From Thiomicrorhabdus sp. Milos-T2 (GTDB lineage Bacteria; Pseudomonadota; Gammaproteobacteria; Thiomicrospirales; Thiomicrospiraceae): DNA of 64,000 bases. The notes beneath the pieces are model-generated. The model saw only the letters and a program-made list of their open reading frames with translations, was not told the DNA's origin and searched no databases. The translations under genes were made by a program, and so were the position numbers. Of the stretch, positions 45,806 through 51,804 are shown piece by piece. Every line of letters begins with the position of its first letter. The first letter of the stretch is position 1. Location of the stretch: the NCBI RefSeq assembly GCF_000702325.1, contig NZ_KL370891.1, forward strand, positions 1,200,917 to 1,264,916, written 5' to 3'.

Positions 45806-46450
45806 TGGAGTGTCAACACTTTATGATACCTAGACTTTTTTCCATTCGAGCTAAATGCTCCATTCTTTTTTGTTCGAATTTCACCGGCGATAAATAACCG
45901 TTCGTACTGTGCGGCCGAATATGGTTATAGTGGCCCATATATTCAGCAATGACTTGTTTCATATCCTTCACTGAGATTAGCTTTGGATGCTGATAAATCG
46001 TTTCTACTTTAAGTGTCTTAAAGAAGCTTTCAATCACAGCATTATCCCAACAATTTCCTCTACGGCTCATGCTTTGTTTTATGCTCCAATGCTTGAGTAA
46101 CCGTCGATAGCTATTACTAATGAACTGACTTCCTTGGTCGGTATGAACCATAAGCCCTTTAGGTGGCTTACGATTCCACAAGGCTCTTTTTAAAGCCGTT
46201 TCAACCAGCTCTGAGCGCATATGAGTATCAATTGCCCAGCCAACGACTTTCCTCGAATAAAGGTCAATATAGGCCGCAAGGTACAACCAGCCCATTGATG
46301 TTTTGATGTAGGTTATATCTCCAACCCAAACTTGGTTGGGGTAGCTGACTATGAAGTTTCTATCCTGGTCGTATTTTCTGCGGCTCATCTATTTGCTCCT
46401 TTTGATAATTATAATTTATCATCTAGGTACTAAATAGTGTATCCACTCCA
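45806..46450 (-). mobile_element. Internally deleted IS3-family element (645 bp)
   Basis: Terminal inverted repeats of about 28 bp bound the unit: TGGAGTGTCAACACTTTATG at 45806 onward and, reversed, TGGAGTGGATACACTATTTA from 46450, both continuing to ACCTAG. The 3-bp target duplication GAA is at 45803-45805 and 46451-46453. Inside is only the C-terminal part of orfB; orfA and the first part of orfB are missing. The intact ends and duplication suggest it moved in as a deleted unit or lost its middle after insertion. Confidence 0.85.
45813..46388 (-). pseudogene. IS3-family transposase OrfB, C-terminal part
   Basis: The 191 residues contain the DDE catalytic core: Asp in WVGDITYIKT, Asp in MVHTDQGSQF and Glu in NAVIESFFKTLK, so the catalytic triad is complete. 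The N-terminal HTH_21 domain and the whole of orfA, with the frameshift window, are lacking, so transposition on its own is unlikely. The TGA stop lies inside the terminal inverted repeat, as in many IS3 elements. Confidence 0.9.
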
Positions 46451-46829: not shown

Positions 46830-48127
46830 CACTAGTGTCCGGAATAAATATTAAAAGCCTTGACAAAAAAGCCGTAACTCCTAGGATAGAAGTATTTCCA
46901 CCACGAAATAGACTTCAAAAACAATGAGATTACGGCTATGTTTAACTCTACCCGATTTGCCCAATTTTTAAAACCCATTCGTACCACTTTTCAATCACTT
47001 GTTCATCAATATCAAACCGATAAACACGCCAAAGGGTTTAGTAGCTGGAATCAATTAGTCGCGATGATGTACGCACAACTTAGTGGCACTAAATCATTAC
47101 GCCAGTTGGTTGAAGGGTTTAACGCCCAATCCTCTCACCACTACCACTTAGGCGTAAAAGAGCTGAAACGCAGCACATTATCTGAAGCAAACCGTAAACG
47201 CTCTGCTGATGTCTACCAAGCACTTTGCCAACAACTCATGGCTGGTGTGAATCGACAATTACGAAAAGAACTCCACGCTTTTACCTATCTAATAGACTCT
47301 TCTCCAATTCAACTGCTCGGTAAAGGTTTTGACTGGGCAGTACAAGGTTCTCGAGTCACAGGCTTTAAGCTGCATATGCAACTAGAACTATCCAACCAAG
47401 TCCCTGTTTGTTTTGAAATCACACAGGCCAATATTCCTGATATTACTCAAGCACGAGAGTGGAATTTAGAACCAGGTTCAACCTATGTGATGGATAAAGG
47501 GTACTTAGACTACCTCTGGTGGAAAAAGCTCAATGACCAAAAAATCAAGCTGGTCTGTCGTTTGAAAAAAAGAGCGGCAATTACCGTCATACAATCCTAC
47601 GAACTCGATGAAAAAGCCCCTCATATTCTTGAAGACCAATGCATTGAGTTTAGTGGTTCAAGCCAGAAAAAACGTCTTGGTCAATTCCAGATGCGCCGTG
47701 TTGTTGTCAAACGTGACGATAATAAAGGTGAATTGGTATTGATTACCAATGACTTCGAGCGTTCAGCTCAAGAGATTGCCCATCTATACAAGCAACGCTG
47801 GCAAATTGAATTATTTTTTAAATGGATTAAACAACACCTCAAAATCAAAAGCTTCATTGGCCAAAACAGTAATGCTGTTCGTATCCAAGTGCTATCAGCC
47901 CTTATTGTGTATCTATTGATTAAGCTTGAACAGATGAAAAATAAGTCAGCAGAACCGTTGAGAGTAACGTTTTGGCGGCTTGCTCATGGGTTGTTTGAAA
48001 GACCTATTCAGCAGAGTGAATACTTTAGGCGAAAACAACAACGGGAAGAGTTTAAGAAATACCAACTTCCGCTATGGGAGGCTGGTATATGAATTGTGGT
48101 ACTGAAATATTATTCCGGACACTAGTG
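46830..48127 (+). mobile_element. IS4-family insertion sequence, intact (1298 bp)
   Basis: Perfect 18-bp terminal inverted repeats: CACTAGTGTCCGGAATAA at 46830-46847 and its complement at 48110-48127. It is flanked on both sides by the 10-bp direct duplication CCAGGCCTGG (46820-46829 and 48128-48137). Removing the element and one duplication restores exactly ACCAGGCCTGGT. Ten bp agrees with the 9-12 bp duplications of IS4 elements. One intact transposase gene lies inside. Confidence 0.92.
46938..48092 (+). CDS. IS4-family transposase
   Basis: This 384-residue DDE transposase has an N-terminal DUF4372-like region (FNSTRFAQFLKPIRTTFQSL), then Asp in FTYLIDSSPIQLL, Asp in TYVMDKGYLDY, and the IS4 YREK signature LYKQRWQIELFFKWIKQHLK (Tyr-x2-Arg-x3-Glu-x6-Lys). 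The frame is intact, so the element may be active. It occupies most of the element between the terminal repeats. Confidence 0.95.
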   Translation: MFNSTRFAQFLKPIRTTFQSLVHQYQTDKHAKGFSSWNQLVAMMYAQLSGTKSLRQLVEGFNAQSSHHYHLGVKELKRSTLSEANRKRSADVYQALCQQLMAGVNRQLRKELHAFTYLIDSSPIQLLGKGFDWAVQGSRVTGFKLHMQLELSNQVPVCFEITQANIPDITQAREWNLEPGSTYVMDKGYLDYLWWKKLNDQKIKLVCRLKKRAAITVIQSYELDEKAPHILEDQCIEFSGSSQKKRLGQFQMRRVVVKRDDNKGELVLITNDFERSAQEIAHLYKQRWQIELFFKWIKQHLKIKSFIGQNSNAVRIQVLSALIVYLLIKLEQMKNKSAEPLRVTFWRLAHGLFERPIQQSEYFRRKQQREEFKKYQLPLWEAGI

Positions 48128-48584: not shown

Positions 48585-48827
48585 CTATTGCTCAGAACCC
48601 TTATTAGATTCATTTCCTGAGTCATTTCCCGTTTCATTATCTAAACGTGTATTTAAAGCTGACTCTACTGCCTCAATACGAGACTTACATAATTGATAAG
48701 CCCTGGTAGCATCATCAACCATAGGAACTAACTCATCAATATCTACCTCACCACTGTTAGCGAGTTTTTGTGCAATCTCTTGTAATTTTTGATAATTATC
48801 TTTAAAACTTTCAGCTGTTTGACTCAT
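48585..48827 (-). CDS. xseB: Exodeoxyribonuclease VII small subunit
   Basis: This 80-residue protein has the XseB helical hairpin: FKDNYQKLQEIAQKLANSGEVDIDELVPMVDDATRAYQLCKSRI (given in parts). Normal length with an acidic, disordered tail. Several XseB copies coat XseA in the enzyme. The xseA gene lies upstream on the same strand, separated by a MITE. In many bacteria xseB is instead with ispA. Confidence 0.88.
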   Translation of the reverse strand: MSQTAESFKDNYQKLQEIAQKLANSGEVDIDELVPMVDDATRAYQLCKSRIEAVESALNTRLDNETGNDSGNESNKGSEQ

Positions 48828-48901: not shown

Positions 48902-49080
48902 GAGACCTTTGCACTAGATAGGTGCGAAAGAAAAATGAGGAAAAATTCACCTGATTGCGGCGGAAAACGCAGGGAATAGCTAGCTATTCGCAAGGTTTTC
49001 AACAAAAATCAGGTGAATTTTTACCCTCAAGGGGCACCTAGAACCATTTTTACTCGCGCATACTCTCGTGCAAAGGTCTC
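48902..49080 (-). mobile_element. MITE copy 8 (179 bp, orientation B) between xseA and xseB
   Basis: The ends are GAGACCTTTGCACTAGATAG and CTCGTGCAAAGGTCTC, with the central GAATAGCTAGCTATTC and the CCCTCAAGGGG module. The right end stops one base short of the xseA stop codon (49082-49084). The flanks CTCT and TCTA do not show a clear target duplication. It separates the genes for the two subunits of one enzyme. Confidence 0.88.
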
Positions 49081-49081
49081 T

Positions 49082-50731
49082 CTAATTAACTTGTTTAATT
49101 TTTTGGTTTTTTACAACTTCAGCTTCGATAATACCATCGCTAAACTCAACCTCAATAATAGGTTGCTTTATGGCTTCTTGAGCTGACGTAATTGGCTCCC
49201 CATTCGAATTCTTGACCAGGCTAAACCCTCTATTTAATTGAGACTTTGGCCCTGAACTTAAGATAAATGCAATCCATTGAATGATCTGTTGTTTTTGAGT
49301 AGATAAAGTTCTCTTTGCTTCTTGGCTAATGGTTTGTTGGAGCTGATTAACTTCATTTTCAATCAAGTCTACTTTTCGTTTAACTTCAGAGTTAATTGTT
49401 TGATGTAAGGTATCAATTAAGTTTGAAACTCGAGATATTTTAGATTCACTCAGTCGGCTAATTTCATAATGAATGGGCTCAATACGTTTTTGCCAGCGAT
49501 ATACACAACCTAAACTGTTTTGAGTAATATCATGATTAAGCTTATTGATTTTGTAATGTAGATTTTGCACCTGTATACGACTGGACTGTTCAATATGAGT
49601 CCAGTTTGTTTGTGCATTTTTAGCTTGTTGTATGATTTGAGATTTTATAAAACCTATGACTTTACTTGGTGTATCAAAACGACTGTGGGCGACTTCATCC
49701 AGAATTGTATTATCTCTTTCATGCCCAATTCCTGCTAAAACAGGTAATTCAATCAAGCACAATGTTTCAGCTATAGATTCAATGTTAAGTGAATTTAAGT
49801 CGAGTTTAGCTCCACCGCCCCTAATAACGACTAGGGCATCAAAGGGATTAGTTTGATGAAGCGACTTAACTGCTGATATCGCTTCAAGCATTTCATTTTC
49901 AACTGACTCACCTTGAAAACTGCTGTAGAAATAGGTGAATTCACATAAACCAAGCTGCTGCAATTCATCAGCATCCGCTCTAAAATCACCTAAACCTGCA
50001 GCCTGTGGTGGTGCTATAACAGCAATTCGGAAAAAATCTAATGGCAAATAGTGAGATTTATTTTGTTGATAGATGCCCTTTTGAATCAAACTTTTACGGA
50101 TTTTATTTAATTTTTGTTCTAATTCACCTAGCGTATAACTAGGGTCTAAATCCTGAATAACCAGAGAAAACCCGTACTGTTCATGAAAGTTAATTTCTGC
50201 TAAAAAGAGTACTTTCTGACCAATTGCAAGCTCACTCCCAGTTTCTAGATTAAATCGCTCTAACAATCGATTAGCCTGGCTTTGCCAAATCATTGCTCTA
50301 CAGTTAGCTACCGCTTGACCACTGTCATTCGTTTCTGATAATTCCAAATAAACATGACCACGTCGAGTATTGATGTTGGCAATCTCAGCAACCACCCATA
50401 CTCCACCAGGAAAACCCTGCCTTAAATTAGCTTGCACCTTACTTAATACAACGGATAGCTTAGCGCCCTTTTGTTCTTTATTTTCATTTGAGCTATAAGG
50501 TTCAAAAGCGAGATTTAATGATTGTTTATCGATGTTTACATTGGTAGTTACATTGGAAGTTACATCGTTAGATTCGGCGTGAGCATTTGATTGAGGTAAC
50601 CATTTTTGAAAATCATCAAGCTTATCACTCAAAGCTTCAGGTACATACCAGCGCTTACTTACCGCATCCCAACGAGCACCCAGCGATTTTGCTTGGTCTT
50701 TTTCACGAAACGGAACCTCTAAAAAAGTCAT
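49082..50731 (-). CDS. xseA: Exodeoxyribonuclease VII large subunit fused to an N-terminal DUF5710 domain
   Basis: This 549-residue protein is about 100 longer than the usual XseA. Residues 3-46 (VPFREKDQAKSLGARWDAV, then KRWYVPEALSDKLDDFQKWLP) match the DUF5710 pattern. A linker of about 40 residues follows, then the OB-fold domain (KLSVVLSKVQANLRQGFPGGVWV) and the nuclease core with VIRGGGAKLDL, GIGHERDNTILDEVAHSRFDTPS and the coiled-coil C-terminus. The enzyme degrades single-stranded DNA from both ends. The start overlaps the dusA stop. Confidence 0.93.
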   Translation of the reverse strand: MTFLEVPFREKDQAKSLGARWDAVSKRWYVPEALSDKLDDFQKWLPQSNAHAESNDVTSNVTTNVNIDKQSLNLAFEPYSSNENKEQKGAKLSVVLSKVQANLRQGFPGGVWVVAEIANINTRRGHVYLELSETNDSGQAVANCRAMIWQSQANRLLERFNLETGSELAIGQKVLFLAEINFHEQYGFSLVIQDLDPSYTLGELEQKLNKIRKSLIQKGIYQQNKSHYLPLDFFRIAVIAPPQAAGLGDFRADADELQQLGLCEFTYFYSSFQGESVENEMLEAISAVKSLHQTNPFDALVVIRGGGAKLDLNSLNIESIAETLCLIELPVLAGIGHERDNTILDEVAHSRFDTPSKVIGFIKSQIIQQAKNAQTNWTHIEQSSRIQVQNLHYKINKLNHDITQNSLGCVYRWQKRIEPIHYEISRLSESKISRVSNLIDTLHQTINSEVKRKVDLIENEVNQLQQTISQEAKRTLSTQKQQIIQWIAFILSSGPKSQLNRGFSLVKNSNGEPITSAQEAIKQPIIEVEFSDGIIEAEVVKNQKIKQVN

Positions 50732-51804
50732 GTACGATCTTCCATGCGTTTAATTTCTTGAGACACCATTTTATAAGCTTCTTCCACAACATTAACTCCG
50801 GCAGTTGCTTTAAAAGCATTTTCTGACAAATGACGTCGCCAGATTCTTCCACCAGGCAAGCCATGAAAAAGCCCTAGCATATGGCGTGTTACTTGAATAA
50901 GCTTACCGCCATTAACTAGATGTTGTTCAATATAAGGGTACATATTATCCAGCACTTGGTCTCGCGTAATAATGGGTTTATCTTCACCATAATATAACTG
51001 ATCAACTTCGGCCAATGAATAAGGTTGCTCGTATGCCGTTCTACCAAGCATAACGCCATCTACAGCAGGTAACGATTGATATTCATTGTAATGTTCTACG
51101 GCTTGGGAATGAGTTTTTAACCCACCGTTGATAGCGATATCTAAGTCTGGAAATTCAGCTTTTATTCTATGAACCCAATCATATTTTAAAGGAGGAACTT
51201 CACGATTTTCTTTAGGTGAGAGTCCTTGTAACCAAGCTTTACGGGCATGAATAATAACCCCATCAACCCCTGCTTTTACCAGGCCTGCTACAAAATTACG
51301 TAAAATTTGAAAATCTTCTTGTTCATCAATACCTATACGAGTTTTAACCGTAACAGGAATGCTCACTTTAGCTTTCATGGCGGCAACATTTTGGGCAACA
51401 AGTTCAGGATGACCAAGCAAGCAAGCTCCAATCATATTATTTTGCACACGATCACTTGGACAACCTACATTTAAATTAATTTCTGAGTAACCCCACTCTT
51501 CACCTAAGGCCGCGCAAGTCGCTAAATCTTTAGAATGACTACCACCAAGTTGCAACACAACTGGTGCCTCACAATCATTATGCCCCAAAAATCGCGGTAG
51601 ATTATCACCATAAATAATAGCACCGGTTGTTACCATTTCACTATATAACCAGGCCTGGTTACTTAATTGACGATGAAAAAAACGACAATGTTTATCTGTC
51701 CAGTCGAGCATAGGCGCAACAGAAAAACCTACTGCACTATTAGCATGAGTTAAGTTCTTATTTACAGCATTTTTTGGTATTTTTAACAAAGCTTGGTGAG
51801 TCAA
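50728..51804 (-). CDS. dusA: tRNA-dihydrouridine(20/20a) synthase DusA
   Basis: This 358-residue FMN enzyme reduces uridines in the tRNA D loop. It has the start VAPMLDWTDKHCRFFHR, typical of DusA, the active-site cysteine in INLNVGCPSDRVQNN, and the FMN-binding DIAINGGLKTHSQA. The C-terminal helical domain has RHMLGLFHGLPGGRIWRRHLS. The stop overlaps the xseA start by 4 bases. It contains one exact and one near copy of the iterated palindrome. It is divergent from relA. Confidence 0.96.
   Translation of the reverse strand: MTHQALLKIPKNAVNKNLTHANSAVGFSVAPMLDWTDKHCRFFHRQLSNQAWLYSEMVTTGAIIYGDNLPRFLGHNDCEAPVVLQLGGSHSKDLATCAALGEEWGYSEINLNVGCPSDRVQNNMIGACLLGHPELVAQNVAAMKAKVSIPVTVKTRIGIDEQEDFQILRNFVAGLVKAGVDGVIIHARKAWLQGLSPKENREVPPLKYDWVHRIKAEFPDLDIAINGGLKTHSQAVEHYNEYQSLPAVDGVMLGRTAYEQPYSLAEVDQLYYGEDKPIITRDQVLDNMYPYIEQHLVNGGKLIQVTRHMLGLFHGLPGGRIWRRHLSENAFKATAGVNVVEEAYKMVSQEIKRMEDRT
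51278..51289. repeat. Iterated palindrome, 11 of 12 match
   Basis: ACCAGGCCTGCT in dusA, read on the minus strand as AGLV. Confidence 0.55.
51647..51660. repeat. Iterated palindrome ACCAGGCCTGGT
   Basis: Exact copy at 51648-51659, flanks A and T making 14 bp; read in dusA (minus strand) as NQAWLY. Confidence 0.9.

Follow-up and report, generated by a model that had tools for sequence, protein, structure and literature searches.

A divergent exodeoxyribonuclease VII large subunit of Thiomicrorhabdus carries an N-terminal DUF5710 domain

Exodeoxyribonuclease VII (ExoVII) is a single-stranded DNA exonuclease that acts from both ends. In the 64,000-nucleotide stretch of Thiomicrorhabdus sp. Milos-T2 DNA analysed here (the window), the gene of its large subunit, xseA, occupies positions 49082–50731 of the minus strand as a single open frame of 549 residues with an ATG start. 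Searching this protein against Pfam (hmmscan) gave a DUF5710 match (PF18974) at residues 1–46 (50594–50731, minus strand; E 1.6e-18, 66.6 bits, gathering cut-off 26.5), exactly the first 46 residues in which a preliminary description of the locus had claimed this domain. A flexible linker of ∼45 residues (residues 47–91; 50459–50593, minus strand) connects it to the OB-fold domain tRNA_anti_2 (PF13742; residues 92–195; 50147–50458, minus strand; 57.5 bits, cut-off 27), which precedes the Exonuc_VII_L part with the catalytic core, coiled coil and C-terminal part (PF02601; residues 222–537; 49121–50068, minus strand; 188 bits, cut-off 35.9). The protein also matched the xseA equivalog model TIGR00237 of NCBIfam with 255 bits (cut-off 180). 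No second DUF5710 match was found in the whole genome at E values up to 0.001. The upstream gene is dus (50728–51804, minus strand; tRNA dihydrouridine synthase, PF01207, 258 bits), and the small-subunit gene xseB, which is of a variant type, lies at 48585–48827 on the same strand. Between xseA and xseB, and outside the fusion, is a palindromic repeat element (48902–49080, no strand assigned) with inverted repeats and a predicted DNA fold.

Several features confirm that the DUF5710 fusion is real and that its start is sound. The xseA ATG overlaps the dus stop codon as ATGA, and a Shine–Dalgarno-like GGAAGA (50738–50743, minus strand) is located 6 nt 5′ of it. There is no further ATG in the frame until codon 147. 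Among the GTG and TTG codons, only TTG34, which is within DUF5710, precedes the core, while GTG99 and GTG113 are in or past the first core helix; a supported downstream start was thus not found, and the in-frame joining through a linker that had been proposed for this gene holds. The order dus–xseA–xseB on one strand was seen in 20 of 20 relatives fetched, 11 of which also have the 4-nt dus/xseA overlap (with starts chosen by script). An artefact of annotation or sequencing, i.e. a wrong start or a chance in-frame joining, might be suspected from one relative (L038, genome G378) in which DUF5710 and the XseA core are in overlapping frames of different phase, either because the gene is split or through a frameshift in the sequencing. 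However, the start of xseA, its spacing, the operon overlap and the recurrence of the fusion in independent genomes all argue against this explanation, whose probability we consider negligible.

To what extent the fusion is shared was followed at three levels. Within the order sample, 60 of 62 genomes had a DUF5710 match, and 57 of 60 had one to Exonuc_VII_L. In each of the 57 genomes with an Exonuc_VII_L match, the two matches shared a contig and their open frames had identical lengths (tables compared by eye). The exceptions are G072 and G074, with neither match, and G079, with DUF5710 only, in a 127-residue frame. We saw neither an XseA without DUF5710 nor a second XseA above the cut-off in this sample. 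Additional Exonuc_VII_L matches either fell short of the cut-off (G024, G059 and G078) or were a further part of a frame already counted (G034), which leaves the fused protein as the sole XseA detected in the order.

Across the class sample, DUF5710 was detected in 22 of 369 genomes. Four of these belong to the order itself, six others (G056, G108, G163, G279, G312 and G366) contain an intact fusion, one is the above-mentioned G378 with DUF5710 and core out of phase, and ten have no XseA core within the locus read (∼1.5 kb on each side). Genome G258 harbours three broken or partial DUF5710–XseA copies (L051, L059 and L061), which suggests copying and decay. In a second class sample, Exonuc_VII_L was matched in 142 of 151 genomes. 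Here, full-length E. coli-type proteins scored about 260–406 bits, as compared with 154–214 bits for six full-length divergent proteins, five of which (G163, G035, G000, G108 and G056) carry DUF5710 and one (G110) does not.

We then gathered relatives through a search with an alignment of the fused proteins, the best 80 matches being kept, and through tblastn on plasmids. Outside the order, these came from Beggiatoa kin, Methylococcaceae, Burkholderiales, Moraxellaceae, Francisella, Cysteiniphilum and a Planctomycetota MAG. In a 70-row XseA tree, 62 rows form one clade (support 100/98), from which the remaining rows, four of E. coli type and four of Bacteroidota, are separate. DUF5710 is present in 43 of the 62 clade rows, a frequency biased by the fused-protein query and the retention of the best 80 relatives, and in none of the eight others. 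Likewise, none of the 16 E. coli-type rows of a wider 85-row set has the domain. This wider set was hand-picked from the loci and includes three of the 23 viral-contig XseA proteins; three broken or partial frames (L135, L136 and L138) were left out. The 70-row tree further omits L141, whose contig ends before the N-terminus, the near copies L104 and L097, and 12 of the 16 E. coli-type rows; L096 was relabelled, its DUF5710 being degenerate on reading. The view of the preliminary description that this layout is non-standard for XseA therefore stands for the sampled E. coli-type proteins; it does not apply to the order, where no other layout was seen, nor to the divergent clade, where the fusion is common in a sample skewed to fused proteins. 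The fused XseA is ordinary within its own lineage.

Clade rows without DUF5710 are those of Psychrobacter, Acinetobacter, Moraxella, Francisella and Cysteiniphilum, while Fluviicoccus (Moraxellaceae according to NCBI) has the domain. Nine plasmid rows reach into DUF5710, and five of these nine (H1, H2, H4, H7 and H8) were read. XseA relatives on plasmids of Polaromonas and Variovorax carry DUF5710 (57–68 bits with a profile built in this analysis), the relative on a Vibrio plasmid carries a diverged copy (25 bits with the same profile), and those on Pseudomonas and Caballeronia plasmids carry none. The domain is also absent from the 23 viral-contig XseA proteins and from a Moraxella phage XseA. 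Placing the fusion label on the 70-row core tree requires six changes, at least four of which are forced by starred branches; the tree of the DUF5710 domain is based on so few columns that it does not tell a single fusion event from several. For 74 of 75 XseA-borne DUF5710 domains, the best-scoring DUF5710 is also XseA-borne, a proportion inflated by close relatives. Four of 20 named hosts (G632, G633, G638 and G640) also have a high-scoring E. coli-type XseA; the other 16 gave low-scoring XseA matches only, subject to draft quality. For the order, the divergent lineage provides the sole XseA detected; some other bacteria have it as an extra XseA, in places on a plasmid. Noviherbaspirillum malthae (G638, the genome of L096) has one XseA with an E. 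coli-type score and four low-scoring divergent copies.

The small subunit of the divergent clade is mostly of a variant type. Specifically, the xseB product of the window matched the NCBIfam model NF045605 (xseB_Acin_var) with 93.1 bits (cut-off 40) and the general xseB model TIGR01280 with 42.2 bits (cut-off 35). Seven of nine XseB proteins or candidates pass NF045605 (43–105 bits). All of these but the window's own, which passes both models, are below the general cut-off of 35 (six of seven), and the candidates from Pseudomonas paraeruginosa (L079) and Vibrio (L076) pass neither. The XseA proteins of Acinetobacter and Psychrobacter share the divergent clade with that of the window, and the name of NF045605, the model matched by the window's XseB, points to Acinetobacter; unlike the window's XseA, the Psychrobacter, Acinetobacter and Moraxella rows have no DUF5710. 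With E. coli-type XseA (PDB 8txr), the window's protein has in common the OB fold, catalytic core, coiled coil, four catalytic residues and a separate small subunit. It differs in being placed outside the E. coli clade (branches 100/100 and 100/98), in the surroundings of the catalytic Asp (AAGLGDF in the window's lineage versus GAALHDI in E. coli), in the added N-terminal DUF5710 and linker, and in the NF045605 type of its XseB.

Residues D249, R304, H337 and D340 of the window's XseA align with E. coli D155, R205, H238 and D241, and none of the four positions varies among the 20 fused sequences of the alignment. We take R205 and D241 to be catalytic residues of E. coli XseA. H238A is named in the title of PDB entry 8txr, and D155A is given as a catalytic-domain mutant of E. 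coli XseA in PMC11077951. To compare constraint along the protein, we used the window's sequence with 20 relatives of the order (21 sequences, 210 pairs) and obtained mean pairwise identities of 0.62 in DUF5710, 0.61 in the OB fold and 0.66 in the catalytic part, against 0.18 in the linker. In six sequences of the genus (15 pairs), pn/ps was 0.19 in DUF5710, 0.17 in the OB fold, 0.17 in the catalytic part and 0.81 in the linker. These values are rough, as synonymous changes are saturated and dS is undefined in seven of 15 DUF5710 pairs and in up to 14 of 15 elsewhere; despite this saturation, the contrast of the linker with the three other parts is large. DUF5710 is constrained about as much as the OB and catalytic domains, and the linker hardly at all.

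AlphaFold predicted a beta-alpha-beta-beta-alpha fold for DUF5710 alone (mean pLDDT 84.4). In the full-length model (mean pLDDT 82.3), four blocks of residues 1–40 reached pLDDT 90–95, and linker residues 49–87 fell below 50 and are predicted to be disordered. Because the overall pTM is 0.50, the placement of the domains relative to each other in this model is uninformative. The core of the model matched E. coli ExoVII (8txr) in Foldseek with E 2.1e-26, at a TMq of only 0.30. The window's DUF5710 copy is not strongly basic (8 K+R versus 8 D+E), and the domain has conserved W and F residues.

Which other proteins carry DUF5710? We scanned 20 non-XseA proteins with the domain, 11 from cellular genomes and nine from viral contigs. 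Ten of the 11 cellular proteins have a relaxase, ArdC-N, Toprim or RNase_T domain. Eight of these have ArdC-N and/or Toprim (L044 only by a sub-cut-off Toprim match), and in the RNase_T exonuclease the DUF5710 match itself is marginal, with 23.3 bits (26.7 in the class sample). In contrast, no relaxase, ArdC-N, Toprim or RNase_T-like DNA domain was seen in any of the nine viral-contig proteins, whose DUF5710 is accompanied by portal, NUDIX, pyrophosphatase, AAA or DUF6011 domains or by nothing else recognised. According to PMC11233732, Rep_3 initiators of Acinetobacter plasmids also bear DUF5710. The association with mobile-element proteins that had been pointed out for this domain holds. These plasmid and phage proteins (relaxases, ArdC-N/MPTase/Toprim proteins and Rep_3 initiators) share the Pfam domain with XseA; however, their remaining part is a relaxase, primase-like protein or initiator rather than an ExoVII core, and the domain is sometimes present in several copies. 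A MobA/VirD2-type relaxase of genome G457 (L073), for example, has TraI_middle, LPD7 and four DUF5710 domains. Short stand-alone DUF5710 frames of 70–88 amino acids are found in ten viral contigs (L222–L230 and L256). When PDB chains were searched with the DUF5710 profile, a match to the Ika8 repeat protein was rejected as spurious (E 9.1e-5 is a sum over repeats of ≤ 5.7 bits each), and two further weak matches were also taken as spurious.

Ahead of any fold search, a resemblance of DUF5710 to the HARP motif had been noticed. Foldseek of the DUF5710 model against PDB ranked the HARP domain of SMARCAL1 (4o66) 11th and 17th of 114, with non-significant E values of 4.8 and 5.9 (rmsd 2.8 over 39 columns, TMq 0.46). 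VIA-align returned eight rows with a best Z of 2.4, among them an XPB chain at Z 2.1 but no HARP row. Among viral models (BFVD), three phage proteins with names relating them to HARP, SMARCA or HepA appeared at ranks 30, 35 and 43 (E 1.2–1.9, non-significant), after proteins that carry DUF5710 (best E 9.0e-4). The viral models also included matches to three DNA polymerase III epsilon-like exonucleases (E 0.10–0.42). By sequence, the Pfam HARP family (PF07443) matched none of 40 DUF5710 members at E values up to 10, with filters dropping most matches above about 0.1. None of 60 genomes from the phylum had a HARP match with E ≤ 0.01; two of 20 other genomes had one with E ≤ 0.1, in both cases below the family cut-off. 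The stretch beside one of these two matches (L257) encodes adenylosuccinate synthetase. Comparison of DUF5710 with UvsW_N (T4 and 12 relatives) by hhalign gave a probability of 0.2, and of 0.0 in a separate run, in which unrelated UvsW/XseA pieces gave 0.0–0.3, except for two pieces that overlap DUF5710. With non-significant fold matches in two libraries and none by sequence or profile, including Pfam HARP and UvsW_N, we do not claim that DUF5710 is a HARP domain; a HARP-like fold is hinted at by the structure models, not at a significant level.

Collectively, we consider it probable that the locus encodes an active ExoVII of a divergent lineage to which DUF5710 adds a tethered nucleic-acid contact, by analogy with the partner proteins of this domain. 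The xseA product would be the catalytic subunit of a working enzyme of the divergent XseA/XseB lineage, and DUF5710 would form a small module that folds independently and is held by a flexible tether of ∼45 residues. Beside the OB fold, this module may bind nucleic acid, the likeliest target being single-stranded DNA or a junction between single and double strands; such contact could raise the hold of ExoVII on its substrate or steer the enzyme to particular ends. The additional substrate binding suggested in the preliminary description is thus partly supported: it fits the purifying selection on DUF5710 and the DNA-handling partners in cellular genomes, but not the partners in viral contigs. 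Moreover, although the DNA-binding domain sits on XseA, the E. coli protein binds DNA only with XseB (PMC11077951), which is why a second DNA contact could matter. It is from the cellular partners, the Rep_3 initiators and this XseB dependence that we infer a tethered second DNA contact. The near-neutral charge of the domain and the nine of nine viral-contig proteins with non-DNA partners are points against it, and the clade rows without DUF5710 indicate that the XseA core can do without the domain.

The same viral-contig proteins make a role in protein contact or packaging possible. DUF5710 might thus recruit or touch a protein, e.g. SSB, replisome parts or XseB, instead of DNA; its charge would suit this, and the conserved W and F residues could make a peptide pocket. 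The 10 of 11 cellular proteins with relaxase, ArdC-N, Toprim or RNase_T domains leave us doubtful of this reading, albeit not dismissive. If DUF5710 were an evolutionary passenger, brought in by a mobile element and now of little effect, this would explain the occurrence of the lineage on plasmids and the absence or degeneration of the domain in several members; such a reading is improbable given a constraint about equal to that of the OB and catalytic domains and a presence in every order genome with an Exonuc_VII_L match. As to the XseA core, its divergence (seen in the low Exonuc_VII_L scores of the six full-length proteins) could mean that the fused protein is regulatory or degenerate rather than an active nuclease. 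We regard this as very improbable, since the four catalytic positions are kept throughout the fused sequences, a linked xseB is present and the order has no other XseA above the cut-off. HARP domains fused to other SNF2 proteins confer annealing-helicase activity (cited in PMC4035279). In a bolder version of the favoured reading, several groups of gammaproteobacteria might have exchanged the E. coli-type enzyme for a second, partly mobile ExoVII lineage with divergent XseA, variant XseB and N-terminal DUF5710. DUF5710 would then be a prokaryotic HARP-like junction-recognition domain that directs the nuclease to single-strand/double-strand junctions and perhaps makes DNA binding less dependent on XseB. 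This combination of claims is unlikely as a whole.

We found no description of the DUF5710–XseA fusion among the papers listed in the literature searches. PMC5512222 (on polyvalent proteins) contains no words beginning with ‘Xse’ or ‘HARP’, and the term ‘exodeoxyribonuclease VII’ is absent from PMC11233732, the one paper of the literature searched in which the word DUF5710 occurs. ExoVII is annotated as one enzyme on the E. coli model; the XseA studied here comes from a lineage of its own, in which XseB is mostly of the variant type. This lineage is found on plasmids too, and its XseA frequently includes a domain otherwise known from conjugation, plasmid-replication and phage proteins. Caution is also needed before XseA function is carried over directly from E. 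coli to Acinetobacter, Francisella and sulfur oxidisers. The fusion also provides DUF5710, a domain of unknown function, with a simple enzymatic read-out through ExoVII activity.

PADLOC gave no match to XseA or XseB. In PHROGs, the XseA core matched an exonuclease family, while the two families matched by DUF5710 have no known function. Transposase-like open reading frames (45813–46388 and 46938–48092, judged by reading) are located near an ArsC-like gene and xseB. The repeat element between xseA and xseB has 17-nt terminal inverted repeats (94%) and a DNA fold z of −9.2, and it is found at no fewer than 40 places of the genome (272 candidates, 40 of which were scored); it looks like a MITE or a similar non-coding repeat family.
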